A stretch of DNA of 64,000 nt from Methylophilus sp. DW102 (GTDB taxonomy: Bacteria > Pseudomonadota > Gammaproteobacteria > Burkholderiales > Methylophilaceae): NCBI RefSeq assembly GCF_037076555.1, contig NZ_AP029023.1, positions 2,356,001 to 2,420,000 of the forward strand. The letters are read 5' to 3'. Positions 2,223-9,248 of this stretch are shown here, one piece after another. The notes beneath the pieces were generated by a model that saw nothing but the letters and a program-made list of their open reading frames with translations, made no database searches and was not told where the DNA came from. Position 1 is the first letter of the stretch; each line of letters begins with the position of its first letter. A program made the translations under genes and the position numbers.

Positions 2223-2921
2223 ATGATCAAAAAAGAAAAACCTGCAAAAAGCTCTACTGTCGACGCTTTGTATAGCCAGCTCAAGCAAAAAATTATTTCT
2301 TTTGAGCTCTATCCGGGCACGCGCATTACCGAACTGGCGCTGGCAGAGATGTTTGGTGTCAGCCGCACGCCGATCCGGCAGGCGCTGCAACGTCTGGAAA
2401 TAGAGGGTTTTTTGAGCATACGTCCCAAGCAGGGTTGCTTTATCCGTGAGCTGGATGTGAACGAACTGATGGAGTATTACGAGGCACGCATCGCTCTGGA
2501 GTTGCTCATCGTCGAATCTGCGGTCAACGCCATGAGTGACAAGCAAGTGGAGCAGATGATGGCACTGTGGCAGCCGGAGAAGCATGATGCGGAATTACAG
2601 ATGGGTATAGACCTTGGCGAAAAAGATGAGTCTTTTCATGTCGGGCTGGCCCTGGCCAGTGACAAACCAGTGCTGGCCTCGATTTTAAAAAACATTAACC
2701 ACCGCATCCGCGTCATTCGTCGCCTGGACCTGAACGCTGACAATCGTAGCCAGCGCACCTATAAAGAGCATTATGAGATACTGCAGCTCATTAAAGAGCG
2801 CGACACGACCAAGGCCAAACAAGCCATGAAGCGACATATCCAGCGCAGTCGAGAATTCGCTAAAACCCTGACGCTGACTGCCTTGGCACGGCAAAAGTTC
2901 TTATCCACCCCCTCTGCCTGA
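2223..2921 (+). CDS. GntR-family (FCD) transcriptional regulator
   Basis: A 232-residue regulator of the FadR/VanR group. Residues 10-75 form the winged helix (SRTPIRQALQRLE is the recognition region) and 80-220 the all-helical FCD effector domain. The FCD metal ligands are present: Asp135 and His139 (DESFH), His183 (KEHYEIL) and His205 (RHIQRS). It therefore probably binds a small carboxylate through a metal. It is transcribed toward the AtzG/E/H-like genes 100 bases downstream, so it is the natural candidate for binding the TTGTATACA boxes at 2976 and 5123. The ATG at 2223 has only a weak AAGG in front of it, placed very close. Confidence 0.92.
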   Translation: MIKKEKPAKSSTVDALYSQLKQKIISFELYPGTRITELALAEMFGVSRTPIRQALQRLEIEGFLSIRPKQGCFIRELDVNELMEYYEARIALELLIVESAVNAMSDKQVEQMMALWQPEKHDAELQMGIDLGEKDESFHVGLALASDKPVLASILKNINHRIRVIRRLDLNADNRSQRTYKEHYEILQLIKERDTTKAKQAMKRHIQRSREFAKTLTLTALARQKFLSTPSA

Positions 2922-2971
2922 CCGCCTGAAAGCCACCCAGTCCGCCGCACTGGTACGGCACTTGCTTGGCT

Positions 2972-2993
2972 TTTGTTGTATACAATATTGCAT
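2972..2993. promoter_or_regulatory. Operator box 1 (TTGTATACAA) before the AtzG-like gene
   Basis: The perfect palindrome TTGTATACAA at 2976-2985 lies inside a 22-base block that recurs with 19 of 22 matches at 5119-5140. The block begins TTTGTTGTATACA and ends GCAT. It ends 29 bases before the AtzG-like start codon. It is likely the site of the adjacent GntR regulator and may overlap the -10 region (TATACA). The function is inferred from symmetry, recurrence and position. Confidence 0.65.
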
Positions 2994-3022
2994 ATCAAAA
3001 AAACCTCACCAAGGAGTTTGCT

Positions 3023-3235
3023 TTGTCACACGCCATGCTGCAAGACACCGAAATCACACCGGCATTTGTTGCCAGCCAATTGCAATTACAGGGTATCACG
3101 CTTGACGAACAGGACCTGCTGCAAACCACGCAACATTACCGCTTGCTATTCAGCCATGCCGAACGTGTCATGAGTTGGCCGCTGGACGAGCACATTGAGC
3201 CCGCACCAGAGTTTCGCCCACAGGCAGCGAGCTAA
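3023..3235 (+). CDS. AtzG/HpxX-like small subunit (DUF4089)
   Basis: A 70-residue helical protein of the DUF4089 family. In Pseudomonas sp. ADP the family member AtzG is the structural partner of the amidase AtzE, a relation derived from GatC-GatA. In Klebsiella the relative is HpxX. I chose the TTG at 3023 because AAGGAG (3011-3016) lies six bases before it. The first ATG (3035) is 18 bases from that site, and upstream codons would overlap the operator. The stop is five bases before the AtzE-like gene, so the two are co-translated. The Trp-Pro-Leu turn (SWPLDE) fits the family. Confidence 0.85.
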   Translation: MSHAMLQDTEITPAFVASQLQLQGITLDEQDLLQTTQHYRLLFSHAERVMSWPLDEHIEPAPEFRPQAAS

Positions 3236-3240
3236 GCGCC

Positions 3241-4590
3241 ATGGATGGAACTCAGAATGCAATCGAGATTGCCAACGCAATCCGCCTGGGAACCGTCTCA
3301 GCCCTGCGCGTGACCGAGGCGGCGCTGGCCGACATTGCGCGCCATGATGGCCGCTACAACAGCTTTACCACCGTAACTGCGGGGCGTGCGTTGCAAGAGG
3401 CCGCGGCCGTGGATGCGGCACGTGCCCGTGGCGAACTGCTGCCACCCCTGGCGGGCGTGCCGTATGCGGTGAAAAACCTGTTTGATATTGCAGGGTTGCC
3501 TACCCTGGCCGGGGCCAAAATCAACCAAAGTCATGCCCCCGCCAGCACCGATGCGCAGCTAGTGCAGGCCATGCAGCGAGCGGGAGCCATCTTGCTCGGC
3601 GCGCTCAATATGGATGAGTATGCCTATGGCTTCACCACAGAAAACCACCATTTTGGCCCCACCCGCAATCCGCATGACCCGACACGTAGCGCTGGCGGCT
3701 CTTCTGGCGGTTCAGCCGCCGCCGTCGCTGCCGGGCTGGTGCCGCTTACGCTAGGCTCAGACACCAATGGCTCAGTACGGGTGCCCTCGTCCATGTGCGG
3801 CCTGTTTGGCCTCAAACCGACGTATGGCGCACTCTCATTGGACGGCATGTTTCCGTTTGTGCACAGTTTTGATCATGCCGGGATTTTTGCGCGCTCCGCG
3901 CAAGACTTGTTGCTTTGCTTTGACGTGCTGCAAGGCAACCCCAGCGCGGACGCAACGCCACGATTAGTCTCAGACACGCCACGCCTCGCCCGCCTGGGCG
4001 GCTATTTTGAGCAAGGCGATGCGCAAGCACAGGCCGCCGTCGCCGCCGTGTGCCACGCCTTGCAGGTGACGCAAGTGGTCGAGTTACCCGAAGTGGCGCG
4101 CGCCCGCTCAGCCGCCTATCTGATTACCGCCAGTGAAGGCGGCAACCGCCACCTGACCCGCTTGCGCATACAGGCCGCTGACTTTGACCCGCTGACTCGC
4201 CCCAGGCTGGCGGCAGGCACCACGCTACCAGCCGCCTGGTATCTGCAGGCACAACGCCTGCGGCGCTGGTTTTTTGAGCAAGCCATGCAAGTGTTTGCGA
4301 GCACGGATGTGCTGATTGCACCGGCCACCCCTTGCTGCGCGCAACCGCTGGGGCAAGAAGACATGGTGATCAACGGCAACCGTATGCCGTTGCGACCCAA
4401 CATGGGCATGTTTACCCAGCCGATTTCGTTTATTGGCTTGCCTGTCGTCGCGGTGCCTGTGCATTTGCCCGGCCAGCTGCCGATTGCGGTACAACTGATA
4501 GGTGCGCCCGGCAAGGAGGCGCAGCTGCTGCAACTGGCACACCATTTACAGTCGTTGTCAGTCTGCCAGTCTCCCGTGGTTAGAAACTGA
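3241..4590 (+). CDS. AtzE/HpxY-like amidase (amidase signature family)
   Basis: A 449-residue cytoplasmic amidase. The Ser-cisSer-Lys triad is readable as Lys78 (AVKNLFDIAG), Ser154 (GGSSGGSAAA) and Ser178 (SDTNGSVRVPSS). Full-length AtzE with AtzG removes ammonia from 1-carboxybiuret in s-triazine breakdown. HpxY, from the same subfamily, belongs to a purine (oxalurate) operon. The order AtzG-AtzE-AtzH and the allophanate hydrolase genes 3 kb downstream favour a ureido compound feeding allophanate, but no cyanuric acid hydrolase (AtzD) is in the window. The exact substrate is therefore open. GC is higher than in the flanking accessory genes. Confidence 0.88.
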   Translation: MDGTQNAIEIANAIRLGTVSALRVTEAALADIARHDGRYNSFTTVTAGRALQEAAAVDAARARGELLPPLAGVPYAVKNLFDIAGLPTLAGAKINQSHAPASTDAQLVQAMQRAGAILLGALNMDEYAYGFTTENHHFGPTRNPHDPTRSAGGSSGGSAAAVAAGLVPLTLGSDTNGSVRVPSSMCGLFGLKPTYGALSLDGMFPFVHSFDHAGIFARSAQDLLLCFDVLQGNPSADATPRLVSDTPRLARLGGYFEQGDAQAQAAVAAVCHALQVTQVVELPEVARARSAAYLITASEGGNRHLTRLRIQAADFDPLTRPRLAAGTTLPAAWYLQAQRLRRWFFEQAMQVFASTDVLIAPATPCCAQPLGQEDMVINGNRMPLRPNMGMFTQPISFIGLPVVAVPVHLPGQLPIAVQLIGAPGKEAQLLQLAHHLQSLSVCQSPVVRN

Positions 4591-4604
4591 TACAGAGGTG
4601 ACCC

Positions 4605-4973
4605 ATGCTGATTAATCATCCCCCTGTCCTCGCCGAAGTCACAGCGGTATTTGCTGACTACGAACGTGCCCTGGTCAACAATGACGTACAAGCCCTGATC
4701 CATTTCTTTTGGCAAAGCCCTCTCGCCGTGCGCTATGGCGCTGCCGAAAACCTGTATGGCTGGGAGCAGATTGTCGCCTTCAGAAAACAACGCACGCCCC
4801 CGCCGCCACGCACCCTGTTTAATACGGTCATCACCACCTATGGCCTTGACTATGCCAACGCCAGCACCGAGTTTAGGCGCGACAATGGCACAGGCCGGCA
4901 AAGCCAGAGTTGGATACGCACTGAACAAGGCTGGAAAATCGCAGCGGCGCATGTGTCCCTGATGCCGGACTAA
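4605..4973 (+). CDS. AtzH/HpxZ-like protein (DUF3225, NTF2/SnoaL fold)
   Basis: A 122-residue protein of the DUF3225 family, whose members are annotated AtzH (cyanuric acid pathway) or HpxZ (oxalurate operon). The sequence suits a single cone-shaped SnoaL-like domain: an N-terminal helix pair, the FFWQSP and VRYG segments, and C-terminal strands ending WKIAAAHVSLMP. It begins 14 bases after the amidase stop with an AGAGGTG ribosome site, so it is the third gene of the operon. In the s-triazine pathway the family is thought to act on the carboxylated urea product of AtzE. That role is carried over here by homology only. Confidence 0.85.
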   Translation: MLINHPPVLAEVTAVFADYERALVNNDVQALIHFFWQSPLAVRYGAAENLYGWEQIVAFRKQRTPPPPRTLFNTVITTYGLDYANASTEFRRDNGTGRQSQSWIRTEQGWKIAAAHVSLMPD

Positions 4974-4976
4974 TGC

Positions 4977-4993
4977 GCTCGCTTGGTGCGAGC
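4977..4993 (+). terminator. Weak hairpin after the AtzH-like gene
   Basis: GCTCGC and GCGAGC form a six-pair stem around TTGGT, four bases after the stop codon, followed a little later by CTCTTTT. It may attenuate read-through between the two halves of the cluster, which would fit the second operator box and promoter region beyond it. Confidence 0.4.
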
Positions 4994-5118
4994 CGCACTC
5001 TTTTGGCGAGCACTGGCTGATTTTCCGCATCCAGACCAAGCAGATTAAAAAATAATTCCCTTGTTTTAAAAGCCTTTTTTTCAACCAGGCATAGACGCAA
5101 CTCAGGCATGTGATTTGC

Positions 5119-5140
5119 TTTGTTGTATACATTGATGCAT
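5119..5140. promoter_or_regulatory. Operator box 2 (TTGTATACAT) before the cysteine hydrolase
   Basis: This is a near copy of the block at 2972-2993: identical through TTTGTTGTATACA and in the closing GCAT, with three differences between. The palindromic core is TTGTATACAT at 5123-5132. It lies 18 bases before the chosen start of the cysteine hydrolase, with a TATAAA at 5143-5148. The shared box implies that both halves of the cluster answer to the same regulator, most likely the GntR protein at 2223. Confidence 0.65.
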
Positions 5141-5158
5141 TTTATAAAGTCCTTTCAG

Positions 5159-5842
5159 ATGATCGCCACCCTGCAAACAGTCACCGTCCCAGCCACGCCC
5201 GAAGCTTTTGTCTTTGATCCTGCACGCACTGCACTCATGCTCATCGATATGCAACGCGACTTCATTGAAGAAGGAGGCTTTGGGCAAAGTCTGGGCAATG
5301 ATGTGCGTTTGCTCAAAGCGGCAATTGCCCCCTGCCAGGCCGTGTTGGCGGCGGCCAGGGCGCAGGGCATGCTAGTAATCCATACCCGTGAAGGCCACCG
5401 ACCAGACATGTCTGACGCCTTTCCAGCCAAAGTGGACCGGGGCGCGCCAAAACTGCGCATCGGCGATCAGGGGCCCATGGGGCGTATCCTGATTCGTGGC
5501 GAACCGGGGCACGAGATTATCCCGGCGCTGTCACCCATCGCTGGCGAACCCATTATCGACAAGCCAGGCAAAGGCGCCTTTTATGCCACCGACCTCGAAC
5601 TGCTATTACGCAAGCGCAACATTGAAGCGCTGATTGTCTGTGGCGTGACGACCGAAGTCTGCGTGCATACCACGGTGCGCGAAGCCAATGACCGCGGTTT
5701 CCGTTGCCTGATTCCTGGCGATTGTTGCGCCTCATACCACCCCGAATTTCACGCCGTCAGCCTGCGCATGTTTGCCGCCCAAGGCGCGATTTTTGGCTGG
5801 GTCACCGATAGCCTGCCACTGGTACACGCATTGCAAAAATAA
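5159..5842 (+). CDS. Isochorismatase-like cysteine hydrolase, probable biuret hydrolase
   Basis: A 227-residue cysteine hydrolase of the isochorismatase-like fold. The triad is Asp30 (LIDMQRDF), Lys135 (IDKPGKGAF) and Cys168 (TTEVCVHTT). The cis-peptide neighbourhood (CGVTTEVC) is intact. As I recall the published biuret hydrolase BiuH triad (D36, K142, C175), the spacing here is nearly the same. Because an allophanate hydrolase lies downstream, biuret to allophanate plus ammonia is the best guess. Ureidoacrylate (RutB-type) or another N-carbamoyl amide are alternatives. The ATG at 5159 is chosen because earlier codons overlap the operator box; its ribosome site is weak. Confidence 0.82.
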
Positions 5843-5876
5843 TCAGGCATCCCGCCATTTGAGGAGAATCCCCATC

Positions 5877-7439
5877 ATGAAAACCGCTTCAGGCATCAAA
5901 CTCTGGTCACCGGGCGACTGGAACGCGCTCTTTGGTTTTGGCACCAATATTCTGGTCAATCTGCTGGTGCTCACCGGCCTGCTCAGGTTTGTGCTCAAAA
6001 TGCCGGACGAGATGGTGTTCGGCCGCATCCTGCCGGCCACCGGGCTCATGCTGTTTCTGAGCACCATGTATTACGCCTGGCTCGCCTATCAACTCGCCAG
6101 GCAGACCGGTCGCAATGATGTGTGTGCGCTGCCGTCTGGCGTCAGCGTACCGCACATGTTTGTGGTGGTGTTTGTGATCATGCTACCCATCTCGCTGGTC
6201 AGTGGCGACCCGGTCAAAGGCTGGGAGGCCGGACTGGCCTGGGTGTTTATCCAGAGCTTTGTGCTGATGCTGGGCGGCTTTATTGCGCCGGTGATCCGCA
6301 AAATCACCCCACGTGCCGCCTTATTGGGCACGCTGGCAGGCGTCTCCGTCGCGTTTATCAGTTTGCGCCCGGCGCTGGAGATGTTCATGACGCCCATGGT
6401 AGGCGTGGTCTGCTTCGCCATTATTCTGGCCAGCTGGTTTGGCGGCGTGCGCTATTTCAAAGGCATCCCGGCCGGGCTGGTGGCGATTGCCGCCGGGACG
6501 CTCATCGCCTGGGGTTCTCACCTGTTCGGGCTCGATTATGCCCACATGAGCCTGAATCACGTCAGCGCCGCCCTTGCCAACTTTGGCTTTTCCATCCCGC
6601 TACCCGCCATCAACCATGTGTTTTCAGGCTTTGAATTTTTAGGTGTGATTCTGGTCACCGCCATCCCGTTTGGCATTTATGACCTGGTTGAGGCAATGGA
6701 CAACGTTGAGAGCGCCGCCGCCGGTGGTGACAGCTTTCCGACAACAAGGGTGTTGACGGCCGACGGCGTGATCAGCCTGATTGGCTGCCTGATGGGCAAC
6801 CCATTTATCAATGCGGTCTACATTGGGCATCCCGGCTGGAAGGCCATGGGCGGCCGCATCGGCTACTCAGCGGCGACCGGGATCATCGTTTTGCTGCTTT
6901 CCTGGCTGGGCATCATCGCCCTCATGGCCTCCTTGATTCCGGTGGTCGCCATTTCGCCTATCTTGCTCTATATCGGCATGCTGATTGGCGCACAAGCATT
7001 TCAAGAAACGCCCAAGAGCCACGCGCCTGCCATTATTCTGGCCTTTTTGCCACATGTTGCGGCCTGGGGGAAATTGCAAATTGACAACGTCCTCGCCGTC
7101 GCTGGCACCAATGCCGCCACCTTGGGGCTGGATAAACTCGGCCAGGTGGGCGTGCTCTACCACGGGCTGGAGGTGCTGGGTGGTGGCGCCATTTTAGGCG
7201 GCTTGATGCTGGGTGCGATTGCCGCCCTGGTCATAGACCGCAAACTGGCAAAAGCCGCTGGCTTTGCACTGGCAGCGGCGCTGTTTACTTTTTTTGGCCT
7301 CATGCATGGCGAGGCGATCGGCATTGGCCAATCGCTACCGATTGCCGCCAGTTATCTGGTGGTGGCGATCATGCTGTGGCTAAGCAGTAAATATGCGCGC
7401 ATTGAGGCCTTGCCCACCGGCCTCAGCAGCCAGCACTAA
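5877..7439 (+). CDS. NCS2/AzgA-like permease for a purine-like or ureido compound
   Basis: A 520-residue inner-membrane protein with about 12-14 hydrophobic helices, resembling the xanthine/uracil/AzgA permease group. It has an N-terminal NILVNLLVLTGLL helix, an internal PSGVSVPHMF segment and a DLVEAMDNVESA stretch resembling the substrate-site helix of this superfamily. GAGGAG at 5861-5866 fixes the ATG at 5877. It lies 34 bases after the cysteine hydrolase and 23-44 bases before the allophanate hydrolase gene, so it most likely imports the substrate that the cluster degrades. The substrate cannot be read from the sequence. Confidence 0.83.
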   Translation: MKTASGIKLWSPGDWNALFGFGTNILVNLLVLTGLLRFVLKMPDEMVFGRILPATGLMLFLSTMYYAWLAYQLARQTGRNDVCALPSGVSVPHMFVVVFVIMLPISLVSGDPVKGWEAGLAWVFIQSFVLMLGGFIAPVIRKITPRAALLGTLAGVSVAFISLRPALEMFMTPMVGVVCFAIILASWFGGVRYFKGIPAGLVAIAAGTLIAWGSHLFGLDYAHMSLNHVSAALANFGFSIPLPAINHVFSGFEFLGVILVTAIPFGIYDLVEAMDNVESAAAGGDSFPTTRVLTADGVISLIGCLMGNPFINAVYIGHPGWKAMGGRIGYSAATGIIVLLLSWLGIIALMASLIPVVAISPILLYIGMLIGAQAFQETPKSHAPAIILAFLPHVAAWGKLQIDNVLAVAGTNAATLGLDKLGQVGVLYHGLEVLGGGAILGGLMLGAIAALVIDRKLAKAAGFALAAALFTFFGLMHGEAIGIGQSLPIAASYLVVAIMLWLSSKYARIEALPTGLSSQH

Positions 7440-7462
7440 CCCCGTGCCAGCCACCCCGACCA

Positions 7463-8812
7463 ATGCCGGAGCCCTGCCCCCACATGAATTTGAACATTTC
7501 GCATCTGAGCGCCGCTTATCGCGCTGGCAGCCTGAAACCCAGCCAGCTGGTCCGGCAGCTGGCAGAAAAAATCCATGCCGAAGATACGCACCATATCTGG
7601 ATTGACCGGATCAGCCTGGAAGAGATGCTGATCTACGCCTGCCAACTGGAGGCGATGGACCCGACCAGCCTGCCTTTGTACGGCATCCCGTTTGCCATCA
7701 AAGACAATATCGACCTGGCCGGATATCCTACCACGGCCGCTTGCCCGGACTTTGCCAACACGGCCGACCAACATGCCACGGTGGTCAGAAAACTGATTGC
7801 CGCGGGCGCGATCCCGGTCGGCAAAACCAATCTGGATCAATTTGCCACCGGCCTGGTCGGCGTACGCTCGCCGTATGGCGCCTGCAAAAACAGCATTGAT
7901 CCTGACTACATTTCCGGCGGCTCCAGTTCGGGTTCTGCCGTGGCAGTTGCGCTGGGCATGGCCAGTTTTAGCCTGGGCACAGACACGGCAGGTTCTGGAC
8001 GGATCCCGGCCGCGTTTAACAATCTGGTTGGCATCAAACCGACCTGCGGCCTGCTTAGCACGCATGGGGTGGTGCCGGCCTGCCGTTCACTCGATTGCGT
8101 CTCTATTTTTGCCGGTACCGCCGAAGAGGCACGCGCCGTGTTGCAAGTCGCGCAAGGAGAAGACCACGAGGATGCCTATTCACGGCGGGCACCCGCGCAG
8201 GCAGTGCACACTTTTCCACCCCGCTTTCGCTTTGGCGTGCCCCGGACTGAGCAACTGAATTTTTTTGGCAACCCCGAGACGCCCGCGTTGTTTGCCCACG
8301 CCGTACAAGCACTGACCGCGATAGGCGGGCAAGCCGTCGAAATAGATTTTTCGGTATTTCTCAACACGGCGCGCTTGCTTTATGAGGGCGCCATCGTCGC
8401 CGAGCGCTATGCCGCCATCCAGCCCTTTATTGAATCACACGCAGAGGCCATGCACCCGGTGACGCGTAGCATCATTCAGGGGGCCAGCAAATTCAGTGCA
8501 GCCGACGCCTATGCCACGCTATACCAGCTCAAAGCCAACCAGGCGCAGGCCCAGCAATGCTGGGATGAGGTTGACCTGCTGGTCACGCCGACGGCAGGCA
8601 CGATTTACACCATACAAGAAGTGGAACAGGACCCGATCCAGACTAATAGCAACCTGGGCTATTACACCAACTTTATGAACCTGCTGGATTTGTCTGCTAT
8701 CGCCCTCCCGGCTGGATTCCAGCACAACGGCCTGCCGTTTGGCATTACGCTCTGCTCACCGGCTTTTCATGACCTTGCGCTGGTTGAACTGGCGCAACGG
8801 CTAGGCCGCTAA
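7463..8812 (+). CDS. atzF: Allophanate hydrolase, amidase domain only (AtzF-N)
   Basis: A 449-residue (or 442 if started at ATG 7484) amidase-signature protein that matches the N-terminal two thirds of AtzF/DUR1 allophanate hydrolases. Counted from 7484 the triad is Lys73 (AIKDNIDLAG), Ser147 (GGSSSGSA) and Ser171 (GTDTAGSGRIP). Allophanate hydrolases use the GTDTAGSGR form rather than the GGS form of GatA. The domain deaminates allophanate to N-carboxycarbamate. The usual protein is about 600 residues with a fused C-terminal domain; here it stops after AQRLGR and that domain is the next gene. Neither start has a clear ribosome site, so translation may be coupled to the permease. Confidence 0.9.
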   Translation: MPEPCPHMNLNISHLSAAYRAGSLKPSQLVRQLAEKIHAEDTHHIWIDRISLEEMLIYACQLEAMDPTSLPLYGIPFAIKDNIDLAGYPTTAACPDFANTADQHATVVRKLIAAGAIPVGKTNLDQFATGLVGVRSPYGACKNSIDPDYISGGSSSGSAVAVALGMASFSLGTDTAGSGRIPAAFNNLVGIKPTCGLLSTHGVVPACRSLDCVSIFAGTAEEARAVLQVAQGEDHEDAYSRRAPAQAVHTFPPRFRFGVPRTEQLNFFGNPETPALFAHAVQALTAIGGQAVEIDFSVFLNTARLLYEGAIVAERYAAIQPFIESHAEAMHPVTRSIIQGASKFSAADAYATLYQLKANQAQAQQCWDEVDLLVTPTAGTIYTIQEVEQDPIQTNSNLGYYTNFMNLLDLSAIALPAGFQHNGLPFGITLCSPAFHDLALVELAQRLGR

Positions 8813-8840
8813 CCGCGCTAAAAAATACAAGGAAACACGC

Positions 8841-9248
8841 ATGTCCATGATAGAAGTCGCCGTCTGCGGCGCGCATATGCAAGGCCTGCCACTCAACCCG
8901 CAATTGCAGGCATTGCAGGCCACTTTTGTGCGCGCCACGCATACCTCGGCCGACTACAAACTCTACCACCTGGCCGGCTTTCACCCACCGCGCCCCGGCC
9001 TGGTCAGAGTCAATACAGGCGGCAGCGCAATCGCCCTGGAGATTTGGCAACTGCCGCTGGAGAACTACGGCAAACTGGTTGCCAGCGTCCCGGCCCCGCT
9101 CGGCTTTGGCACCCTTACGCTGCAAGATGGCCAACAAGTGGCCGGTTTTTTGTGTGAAGCCTACGCCAGCGCAACCGCCACGGATATCTCGGTCTTTGGC
9201 GGCTGGCGGGCTTATCTGCATGCACAAAGCCAGGGCAGCAATAAATAG
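8841..9248 (+). CDS. Allophanate hydrolase C-terminal domain as a separate protein (AtzF-C)
   Basis: A 135-residue protein that aligns over its whole length with the C-terminal domain of allophanate hydrolase. It has the VAVCGAHMQGLPLN opening, the PAPLGFGTLTLQDGQ core and the closing ATDISVFGGWRAYL. In fused enzymes this domain is credited with finishing the reaction (decarboxylation of N-carboxycarbamate) and with oligomer assembly. It has its own AAGGAAA site and ATG, 28 bases after the amidase stop and in another frame. That frame stays open back to a TAG at 8802, so one indel between 8805 and 8812 would rejoin the two. A true gene split is favoured by the good ribosome site but not proven. 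Confidence 0.88.
   Translation: MSMIEVAVCGAHMQGLPLNPQLQALQATFVRATHTSADYKLYHLAGFHPPRPGLVRVNTGGSAIALEIWQLPLENYGKLVASVPAPLGFGTLTLQDGQQVAGFLCEAYASATATDISVFGGWRAYLHAQSQGSNK

Follow-up and report, generated by a model that had tools for sequence, protein, structure and literature searches.

A two-gene allophanate hydrolase at the end of a predicted triuret operon in Methylophilus

In Methylophilus sp. DW102 the amidase domain and the C-terminal AH_C domain of allophanate hydrolase (AtzF) are encoded by two adjacent genes. They lie in a stretch of 64,000 nucleotides, here called the window (positions 2,356,001 to 2,420,000 of contig NZ_AP029023.1, assembly GCF_037076555.1, a genome of 3.02 Mb in one contig); coordinates below count from its first letter, and all the genes so placed are on the forward (+) strand. 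The reading we favour, at a probability of about 0.72, is that this is a real two-gene allophanate hydrolase, derived from one old fission and working as a two-subunit enzyme that ends a predicted triuret operon. A sequence-only reading of the same DNA had pointed to the split and wanted an assembly error excluded. Comparison with relatives has achieved that and supports a genuine two-gene enzyme; the predicted triuret operon and the commonness of the split state in Methylophilaceae go beyond what had been proposed.

The two genes

The first gene (7463-8812; ATG start, TAA at 8810-8812) specifies the amidase subunit, AtzF-N, of 449 amino acids, and the second (8841-9248; ATG, TAG) the separate AH_C subunit, AtzF-C, of 135 amino acids and with a gamma-glutamylcyclotransferase-like fold. 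Between them are 28 nucleotides (8813-8840) that include a ribosome-site-like AAGGAAA at 8829-8835. Both open reading frames (ORFs) are intact and they differ in frame, that of AH_C being open from 8805, with TAG at 8802-8804 as the preceding in-frame stop. The amidase protein scores 675 bits against NF006043 (cut-off 487), covering profile positions 5-444 of 600, and 616 bits against the allophanate hydrolase profile TIGR02713 (cut-off 511), for which it suffices alone. The protein from the second gene covers positions 1-122 of 123 of AH_C PF21986 (170 bits, E 2.7e-50) and also aligns to NF006043 positions 471-598. From this coverage of NF006043 it follows that both domains are whole and the linker alone is missing; some two residues remain beyond the amidase domain in AtzF-N, and no single ORF at the locus holds both domains. 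In all this the ORFs and profile matches agree with the sequence-only reading, which had separate genes, the second with its own ATG and AAGGAAA site, in another frame and 28 nucleotides on. It was also correct that, with the AH_C frame open where it is, one indel near 8805-8812 would merge the frames.

That a single indel could join the frames is what would favour an artefact of sequencing or assembly, or else a frameshift newly arisen in a single strain, as the source of the split. A second assembly of the same species (L032; G and L numbers are our handles for genomes and loci) has the same split, with 18 differences over 1786 nucleotides, and the AH_C protein is 100% identical to its counterpart in Methylophilus sp. 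13. The wider comparison, to which we now turn, bears on the matter more heavily still.

Distribution of the split

AH_C was searched for in 187 Methylophilaceae genomes from 24 genera and is present in 43 of them, representing 13 genera, with 49 matches (45 full length, 4 partial). Forty of the 45 full-length matches are in frames of 135-215 amino acids and five in frames of 607-623 amino acids, and all five of these long, fused frames belong to the genus Methylophilus. Forty-six loci were fetched from the family, five of them fused and the other 41 split (39 with a full-length match and 2 with a partial one); the partial matches among them are L129 and L130, with the second match of G125 and that of G160 left out. 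A separate amidase ORF stands upstream on the same strand in 41/41 split loci, though in some a contig end truncates it. A plausible AH_C start falls within -4 (an ATGA overlap) to +66 nucleotides of the amidase stop in 39 of these loci and roughly 0.3 and 0.7 kb away in the remaining two; each of the three relative frames is represented. In the locus with the 0.7-kb gap (L092, from the draft genome G034) an ORF at 8132-8971 of that locus, of about 234 (234-279) codons and with no Pfam match, lies between the halves. A scan for Shine-Dalgarno-like sequences gave a positive result for 26/50 split genes; since the start codons picked automatically for it were not reliable, nothing here is based on that figure.

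An error or one-strain frameshift thus has to contend with the same split in the second assembly and across 13 genera, with all frame relations, with varying spacing, with an ORF between the halves in G034 and with purifying selection on both genes (below). These comparative data rule it out, and its probability is in our view next to nil. Among the relatives examined, none combines a fused gene with identical flanks, which is what the sequence-only reading had named as telling against it; the five fused Methylophilus loci are in another operon. Its statement that the enzyme is normally one protein stands outside Methylophilaceae. Within the family, members possessing the enzyme usually have it in two separate parts. 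Outside the family, a survey of the order (399 genomes, drawn evenly) gave 92 matches of at least 150 bits, 87 of them in frames of at least 450 amino acids; the other five comprise two at contig ends (G309, G262) and three splits (G280, G545, G561).

Might the halves be joined in translation, by frameshifting or stop-codon readthrough, to give a fused protein after all? The few bases by which the AH_C frame of the window overlaps the end of the amidase frame would invite the idea, but the loci have no frame relation in common, two have gaps of 0.3 and 0.7 kb, and the AH_C gene of the window has its own ATG and ribosome-site-like sequence. In G1029 (locus L200; same phylum, another class) the amidase gene shares its strand with a urea-carboxylase-like gene, and the sole AH_C match of the genome converges on the amidase gene from the opposite strand. 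With the genes so disposed, the AH_C domain can only be a separate protein in that organism, though the split there is that of one genome, AH_C having been found in 0/73 other genomes of its family. The lack of a shared frame relation and the opposite strands in one genome dispose of frameshifting or readthrough as a general mechanism, and we leave it only a very slight probability.

Origin of the split

Loci with both domains numbered 173, and removal of 5 duplicates and 10 incomplete rows left 158. The single-domain trees hold 131 of these 158 rows. The broken fused gene L081 was dropped from them, as were near copies from Paraburkholderia and its kin and two more of the fused gene of Methylophilus. 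A combined tree was made from 56 chosen rows, and all the trees are unrooted. In both the amidase and the AH_C tree the 38 Methylophilaceae split rows, together with G280 and G545, form one clade of 40 (Shimodaira-Hasegawa-like approximate likelihood-ratio test, SH-aLRT, 94 and 98 respectively), and in the combined tree 18/18 split rows come together with support of 100/97. There the split clade is inside a group of 28 (100/97), whose other ten members are Burkholderiales, nine fused and one split (L164). The amidase and combined trees nest the split clade among fused Burkholderiales, whereas the AH_C tree alone is unclear on nesting.

There are also traces of what was lost. The linker of fused enzymes has a median of 28 residues and a range of 14-45 (117 loci, near copies included), and 43 of these 117 linkers, including those of the fused Burkholderiales nearest the split clade, have a GAT pattern. 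The same GAT linker motif ends 24/50 split amidases, 23 of them from Methylophilaceae, a count that excludes L162, whose match is an unrelated GSS. No tail remains in 3/4 Methylophilus split amidases. Because of the single split clade nested within fused Burkholderiales and the linker remnants, we infer that an ancestral fused gene underwent a single split on the line to Methylophilaceae. The two additional members of the clade, G280 and G545, are one genome each from two other families; the genus of G545 otherwise has long frames, and G545 probably received the gene pair by transfer.

Across the whole set, five fused/split changes are needed on the amidase tree and six on each of the AH_C and combined trees. 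Surveys of the class (43/369 genomes with a match) and the phylum (76/398) served to find further splits and give no tally of fused against split. The further splits counted on the trees are in Sulfurospirillaceae (two genomes), a Cellvibrionales metagenome-assembled genome (L039), G872, G778 and G561, all but the first being single draft genomes, and for the single-genome splits L039, L160, L161 and L164 the draft state makes a sequencing error possible. L162 (G765; an incomplete row) looks split, but a contig end truncates its amidase, and the enzyme is fused in two genomes of the same genus.

Selection, conserved residues and how the enzyme may work

The ratio of nonsynonymous to synonymous substitution rates (dN/dS) was taken over 13 pairs. 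It ranges over 0.05-0.12 for the amidase gene and, in 12 of the 13 pairs, over 0.04-0.17 for the AH_C gene, these being rough values where dS exceeds 1, as it does in several pairs, and the pairs being partly non-independent. Between Methylophilus loci it is about 0.1 for both genes. These ratios point to purifying selection on each of the two. In the amidase, Lys80, Ser154, Ser155, Ser178, Tyr307 and Arg315 are kept in 40/40 split and 111/111 fused proteins, and the window protein has both the Ser-cisSer-Lys triad and the Tyr/Arg pair (Tyr307, Arg315) that we take, from the Granulibacter enzyme, to be substrate-binding. The AH_C residue His12, kept in 40/40 split proteins, matches by numbering His492 of the Kluyveromyces lactis (K. 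lactis) enzyme, presumably the catalytic histidine of the C-domain active site. Gly77 and Gly90 (39/40 and 40/40) are by our own count Gly559 and Gly572 of the same enzyme, change of which makes it monomeric and far less active (PMC5770610). The AH_C subunit is predicted to fold well alone (predicted local distance difference test score, pLDDT, 90.6), and structural alignment superposes the model on the K. lactis C domain.

In the mechanism we envisage, the amidase subunit would remove ammonia from allophanate in the first step. The AH_C subunit would associate with it, completing the enzyme, would contribute to the oligomer interface and assembly, as is thought for the C domain in fused enzymes, and would handle the N-carboxycarbamate product in the second step. 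What favours this division of labour is the retention of the residues, the fold and truncation data for AtzF, which without its C domain has biuret activity equal to that of the whole enzyme and is dimeric rather than hexameric (PMC3944691).

The main rival has the subunits going their own ways, with the amidase alone releasing N-carboxycarbamate and AH_C acting as an independent decarboxylase on the free intermediate. The same truncation result can be cited in its support. So can the operons of Escherichia coli (E. coli) CFT073 and L213, where AH_C accompanies fdrA and carbamate kinase and has no amidase gene next to it, and the varying spacing, and in one genome strand, of the AH_C gene. Against it, such distant relatives look different: in 10 of 15 other, mostly distant AH_C rows, including E. 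coli c4763, (V/I)NGTLMRG stands where split AH_C has VCGAH (the remainder comprise two rows with His, two with a gap at this place and one with a different sequence). In split AH_C His12 and both glycines are retained, as though the part it plays in fused enzymes still constrained it, and the two genes almost always occur side by side and are inherited together. Independence is on balance unlikely, if the alternative most deserving of attention, and a two-subunit enzyme is preferred.

The predicted triuret operon

The pair is the end of a run of genes that are presumably co-transcribed (2223-9248). At its head a GntR-family (FCD) protein (2223-2921) is the probable regulator of the cluster. 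There follow an AtzG-like small subunit (2966-3235), an AtzE-family amidase predicted to be a 1-carboxybiuret hydrolase (3241-4590; NF006631, 644 bits, cut-off 461) and an AtzH/HpxZ-like protein (4605-4973), also above its profile cut-off and predicted, from the function given in PMC6219798, to be a 1,3-dicarboxyurea decarboxylating hydrolase.

Next is a TrtA-like, isochorismatase-like protein, predicted to be a triuret hydrolase (5159-5842). Its best match in the PDB is 6xix, the triuret hydrolase of Herbaspirillum (PMC7948467), from which paper the TrtA specificity positions are taken. Inspected by eye, its alignment with 6xix shows F35, N41, E160, Y187, Q202 and I205, so that 6/6 positions are TrtA-type, though BiuH too has Q202, which by identity is therefore not diagnostic. 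That the protein is instead a biuret hydrolase is rejected by its score of 269 bits against a cut-off of 370 and by the TrtA-type residues.

Between it and the amidase gene is a gene (5877-7439) for a transporter-like protein of 520 amino acids, the candidate transporter of the operon, which has no Pfam, NCBIfam or PDB sequence match at usual thresholds, nor any in the PDB at E up to 1. Its identity to the proteins of one Methylovulum and two Methylophilus loci is 83-91%, and to those of three other loci about 50%. Its homologues share loci with trtA-like genes, and it is a candidate for a triuret transporter family.

The product of TrtA is 1-carboxybiuret, which decays spontaneously with a half-life of about 20 min (PMC7948467), and in Pseudomonas sp. 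ADP AtzEG and AtzH lead from 1-carboxybiuret to allophanate (PMC6219798). The operon is therefore predicted to hold a full route from triuret to ammonia that does without BiuH or TrtB: TrtA would convert triuret to 1-carboxybiuret, AtzEG would take this to 1,3-dicarboxyurea, AtzH would yield allophanate, and as the last step split AtzF would release ammonia and CO2. In such a setting a freed AH_C might have a further use, as a shared decarboxylase that may act also on the N-carboxy intermediates 1-carboxybiuret (from TrtA) and 1,3-dicarboxyurea (from AtzEG). This is distinctly doubtful; if true, the tethered C domain of a fused enzyme would reach such intermediates less easily.

Several points weigh against a two-subunit enzyme ending a triuret operon. 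Adjacency of atzG, atzE and atzH includes one member, the AtzG-like protein, whose 20.6 bits are under its Pfam cut-off of 24, and triuret as substrate is suggested by residues and neighbours only. Physical association of the N and AH_C subunits, though the most likely arrangement, is a prediction from sequence, and since AtzF cut down to its amidase domain keeps the full enzyme's activity on biuret, AH_C may be dispensable for the first step. One split AH_C from outside Methylophilaceae (L161) has Pro at the His12 position. The enzyme is patchy, as the 43 of 187 family genomes indicate, and 16 listed genomes of the same genus have no match; to these must be added the roughness of the selection ratios already mentioned.

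Neighbourhoods in relatives and the fused copy

Elsewhere in the family the split enzyme seems to keep other company. Outside Methylophilus, the sequence fetched includes a urea-carboxylase-like gene for 32 of 37 split loci; the contigs of the other five break off at the amidase gene or close to it. Homologues of UAAP1 and UAAP2 are likewise present in 27 of the 37. We assume these names to correspond to CgdAB, the carboxyguanidine deiminases of guanidine use. A guanidine carboxylase-CgdAB-AtzF pathway has been named (PMC9800807). Guanidine-II riboswitches are present in four of ten loci searched and absent from the other six, being beside the carboxylase gene in split L092, L121 and L125 and before it in fused L128; an Rfam scan of the window gave no match. 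Given the carboxylase, UAAP and riboswitch neighbours, a role in guanidine breakdown is probable for the split enzyme of many relatives. The neighbours in the four Methylophilus split loci are instead AtzG, AtzE, AtzH, TrtA and the transporter.

The genome of the window also has, about 0.3 Mb away, a fused allophanate hydrolase of 600 amino acids (L128) in a urea/guanidine carboxylase operon; eutB and eutC genes are nearby. Fused Methylophilus enzymes, three of whose five loci are in the tree, group with Paraburkholderia (SH-aLRT 100 in the amidase tree, 100/100 in the combined tree). This grouping excludes the fused copy as parent or product of the split one, though the AH_C tree alone does not resolve the point. 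Does the presence of a fused enzyme make the split pair a redundant, decaying leftover? The dN/dS of about 0.1 for both genes between Methylophilus loci, the intact conserved residues and the retention of the same operon in 4/4 Methylophilus loci fetched argue otherwise, as do the placing of the fused copy in a different operon, with urea/guanidine carboxylase, and the carriage of the split pair with no fused copy by G059. Decay is accordingly given very little credence.

Naming and significance

In the naming check, 389 of 394 candidates were proteins of 74-236 amino acids (a length rule that may have let in contig-end fragments) and 120 were listed. Among these matches the names include 'allophanate hydrolase-related protein' (RefSeq), 'allophanate hydrolase', 'amidase' and 'hypothetical protein', and with many close AH_C homologues labelled hypothetical, annotation hides the gene pair. 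Among the literature matches listed (titles and abstract openings, most subscription papers being outside the search) there is no published description of the two-gene form. It is a variant of a known enzyme, and free-standing c4763, whose structure has been solved, was already known. Whether the C domain serves catalysis or assembly has been studied with truncated and mutated versions of fused enzymes. With nature supplying both parts as separate, co-inherited genes, through one old split and others independent of it, and with a fused copy alongside in this genome, these roles become testable by mixing, swapping and deleting subunits.

Comparison with known systems

AtzF of Pseudomonas sp. 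ADP and the Granulibacter enzyme (PDB 4cp8 and 4gyr) have the same two domains in the same order with conserved catalytic residues, but are single chains with a linker where here there are two genes; the natural cut is close to the trypsin site in AtzF, after the amidase domain. With the allophanate hydrolase and urea amidolyase of K. lactis (4iss, 5i8i) there are in common the C-domain superposition and, by our own count, both dimer-interface glycines. The K. lactis enzymes are fused, urea amidolyase further to urea carboxylase, whereas here the parts are separate.

E. coli c4763 (5c5z, 'allophanate hydrolase-related protein') is, like AtzF-C, a free-standing AH_C fold, with about 40% identity. 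Unlike AtzF-C it has no adjacent amidase gene, being beside fdrA, arcC and a cysteine hydrolase gene, and is without the His12 motif. The window protein has VCGAHMQG in place of NGTLMRG and an amidase gene next to it, and motif and neighbour together exclude it from the c4763-like family. AH_C-like genes with NGTLMRG occur near TrtA-like hydrolases in L203, L211-L214, L170, L218 and L223; in L213 and E. coli CFT073 (with the cysteine hydrolase in the latter) they accompany fdrA, AllH/DUF2877 and carbamate kinase, with no amidase. Their products are possibly the decarboxylase of a phosphorolytic ureide pathway.

The triuret pathway of Herbaspirillum sp. BH-1 (TrtA, TrtB, BiuH and AtzF) likewise has TrtA and an allophanate hydrolase in one operon (PMC7948467, PMC12625717). 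In Methylophilus AtzGEH replaces TrtB and BiuH, and AtzF is split. The AtzGEH arrangement resembles that of the cyanuric acid operon of Pseudomonas sp. ADP (PMC6219798), and its combination with TrtA would make for a route unlike the described TrtA-TrtB-BiuH pathway.
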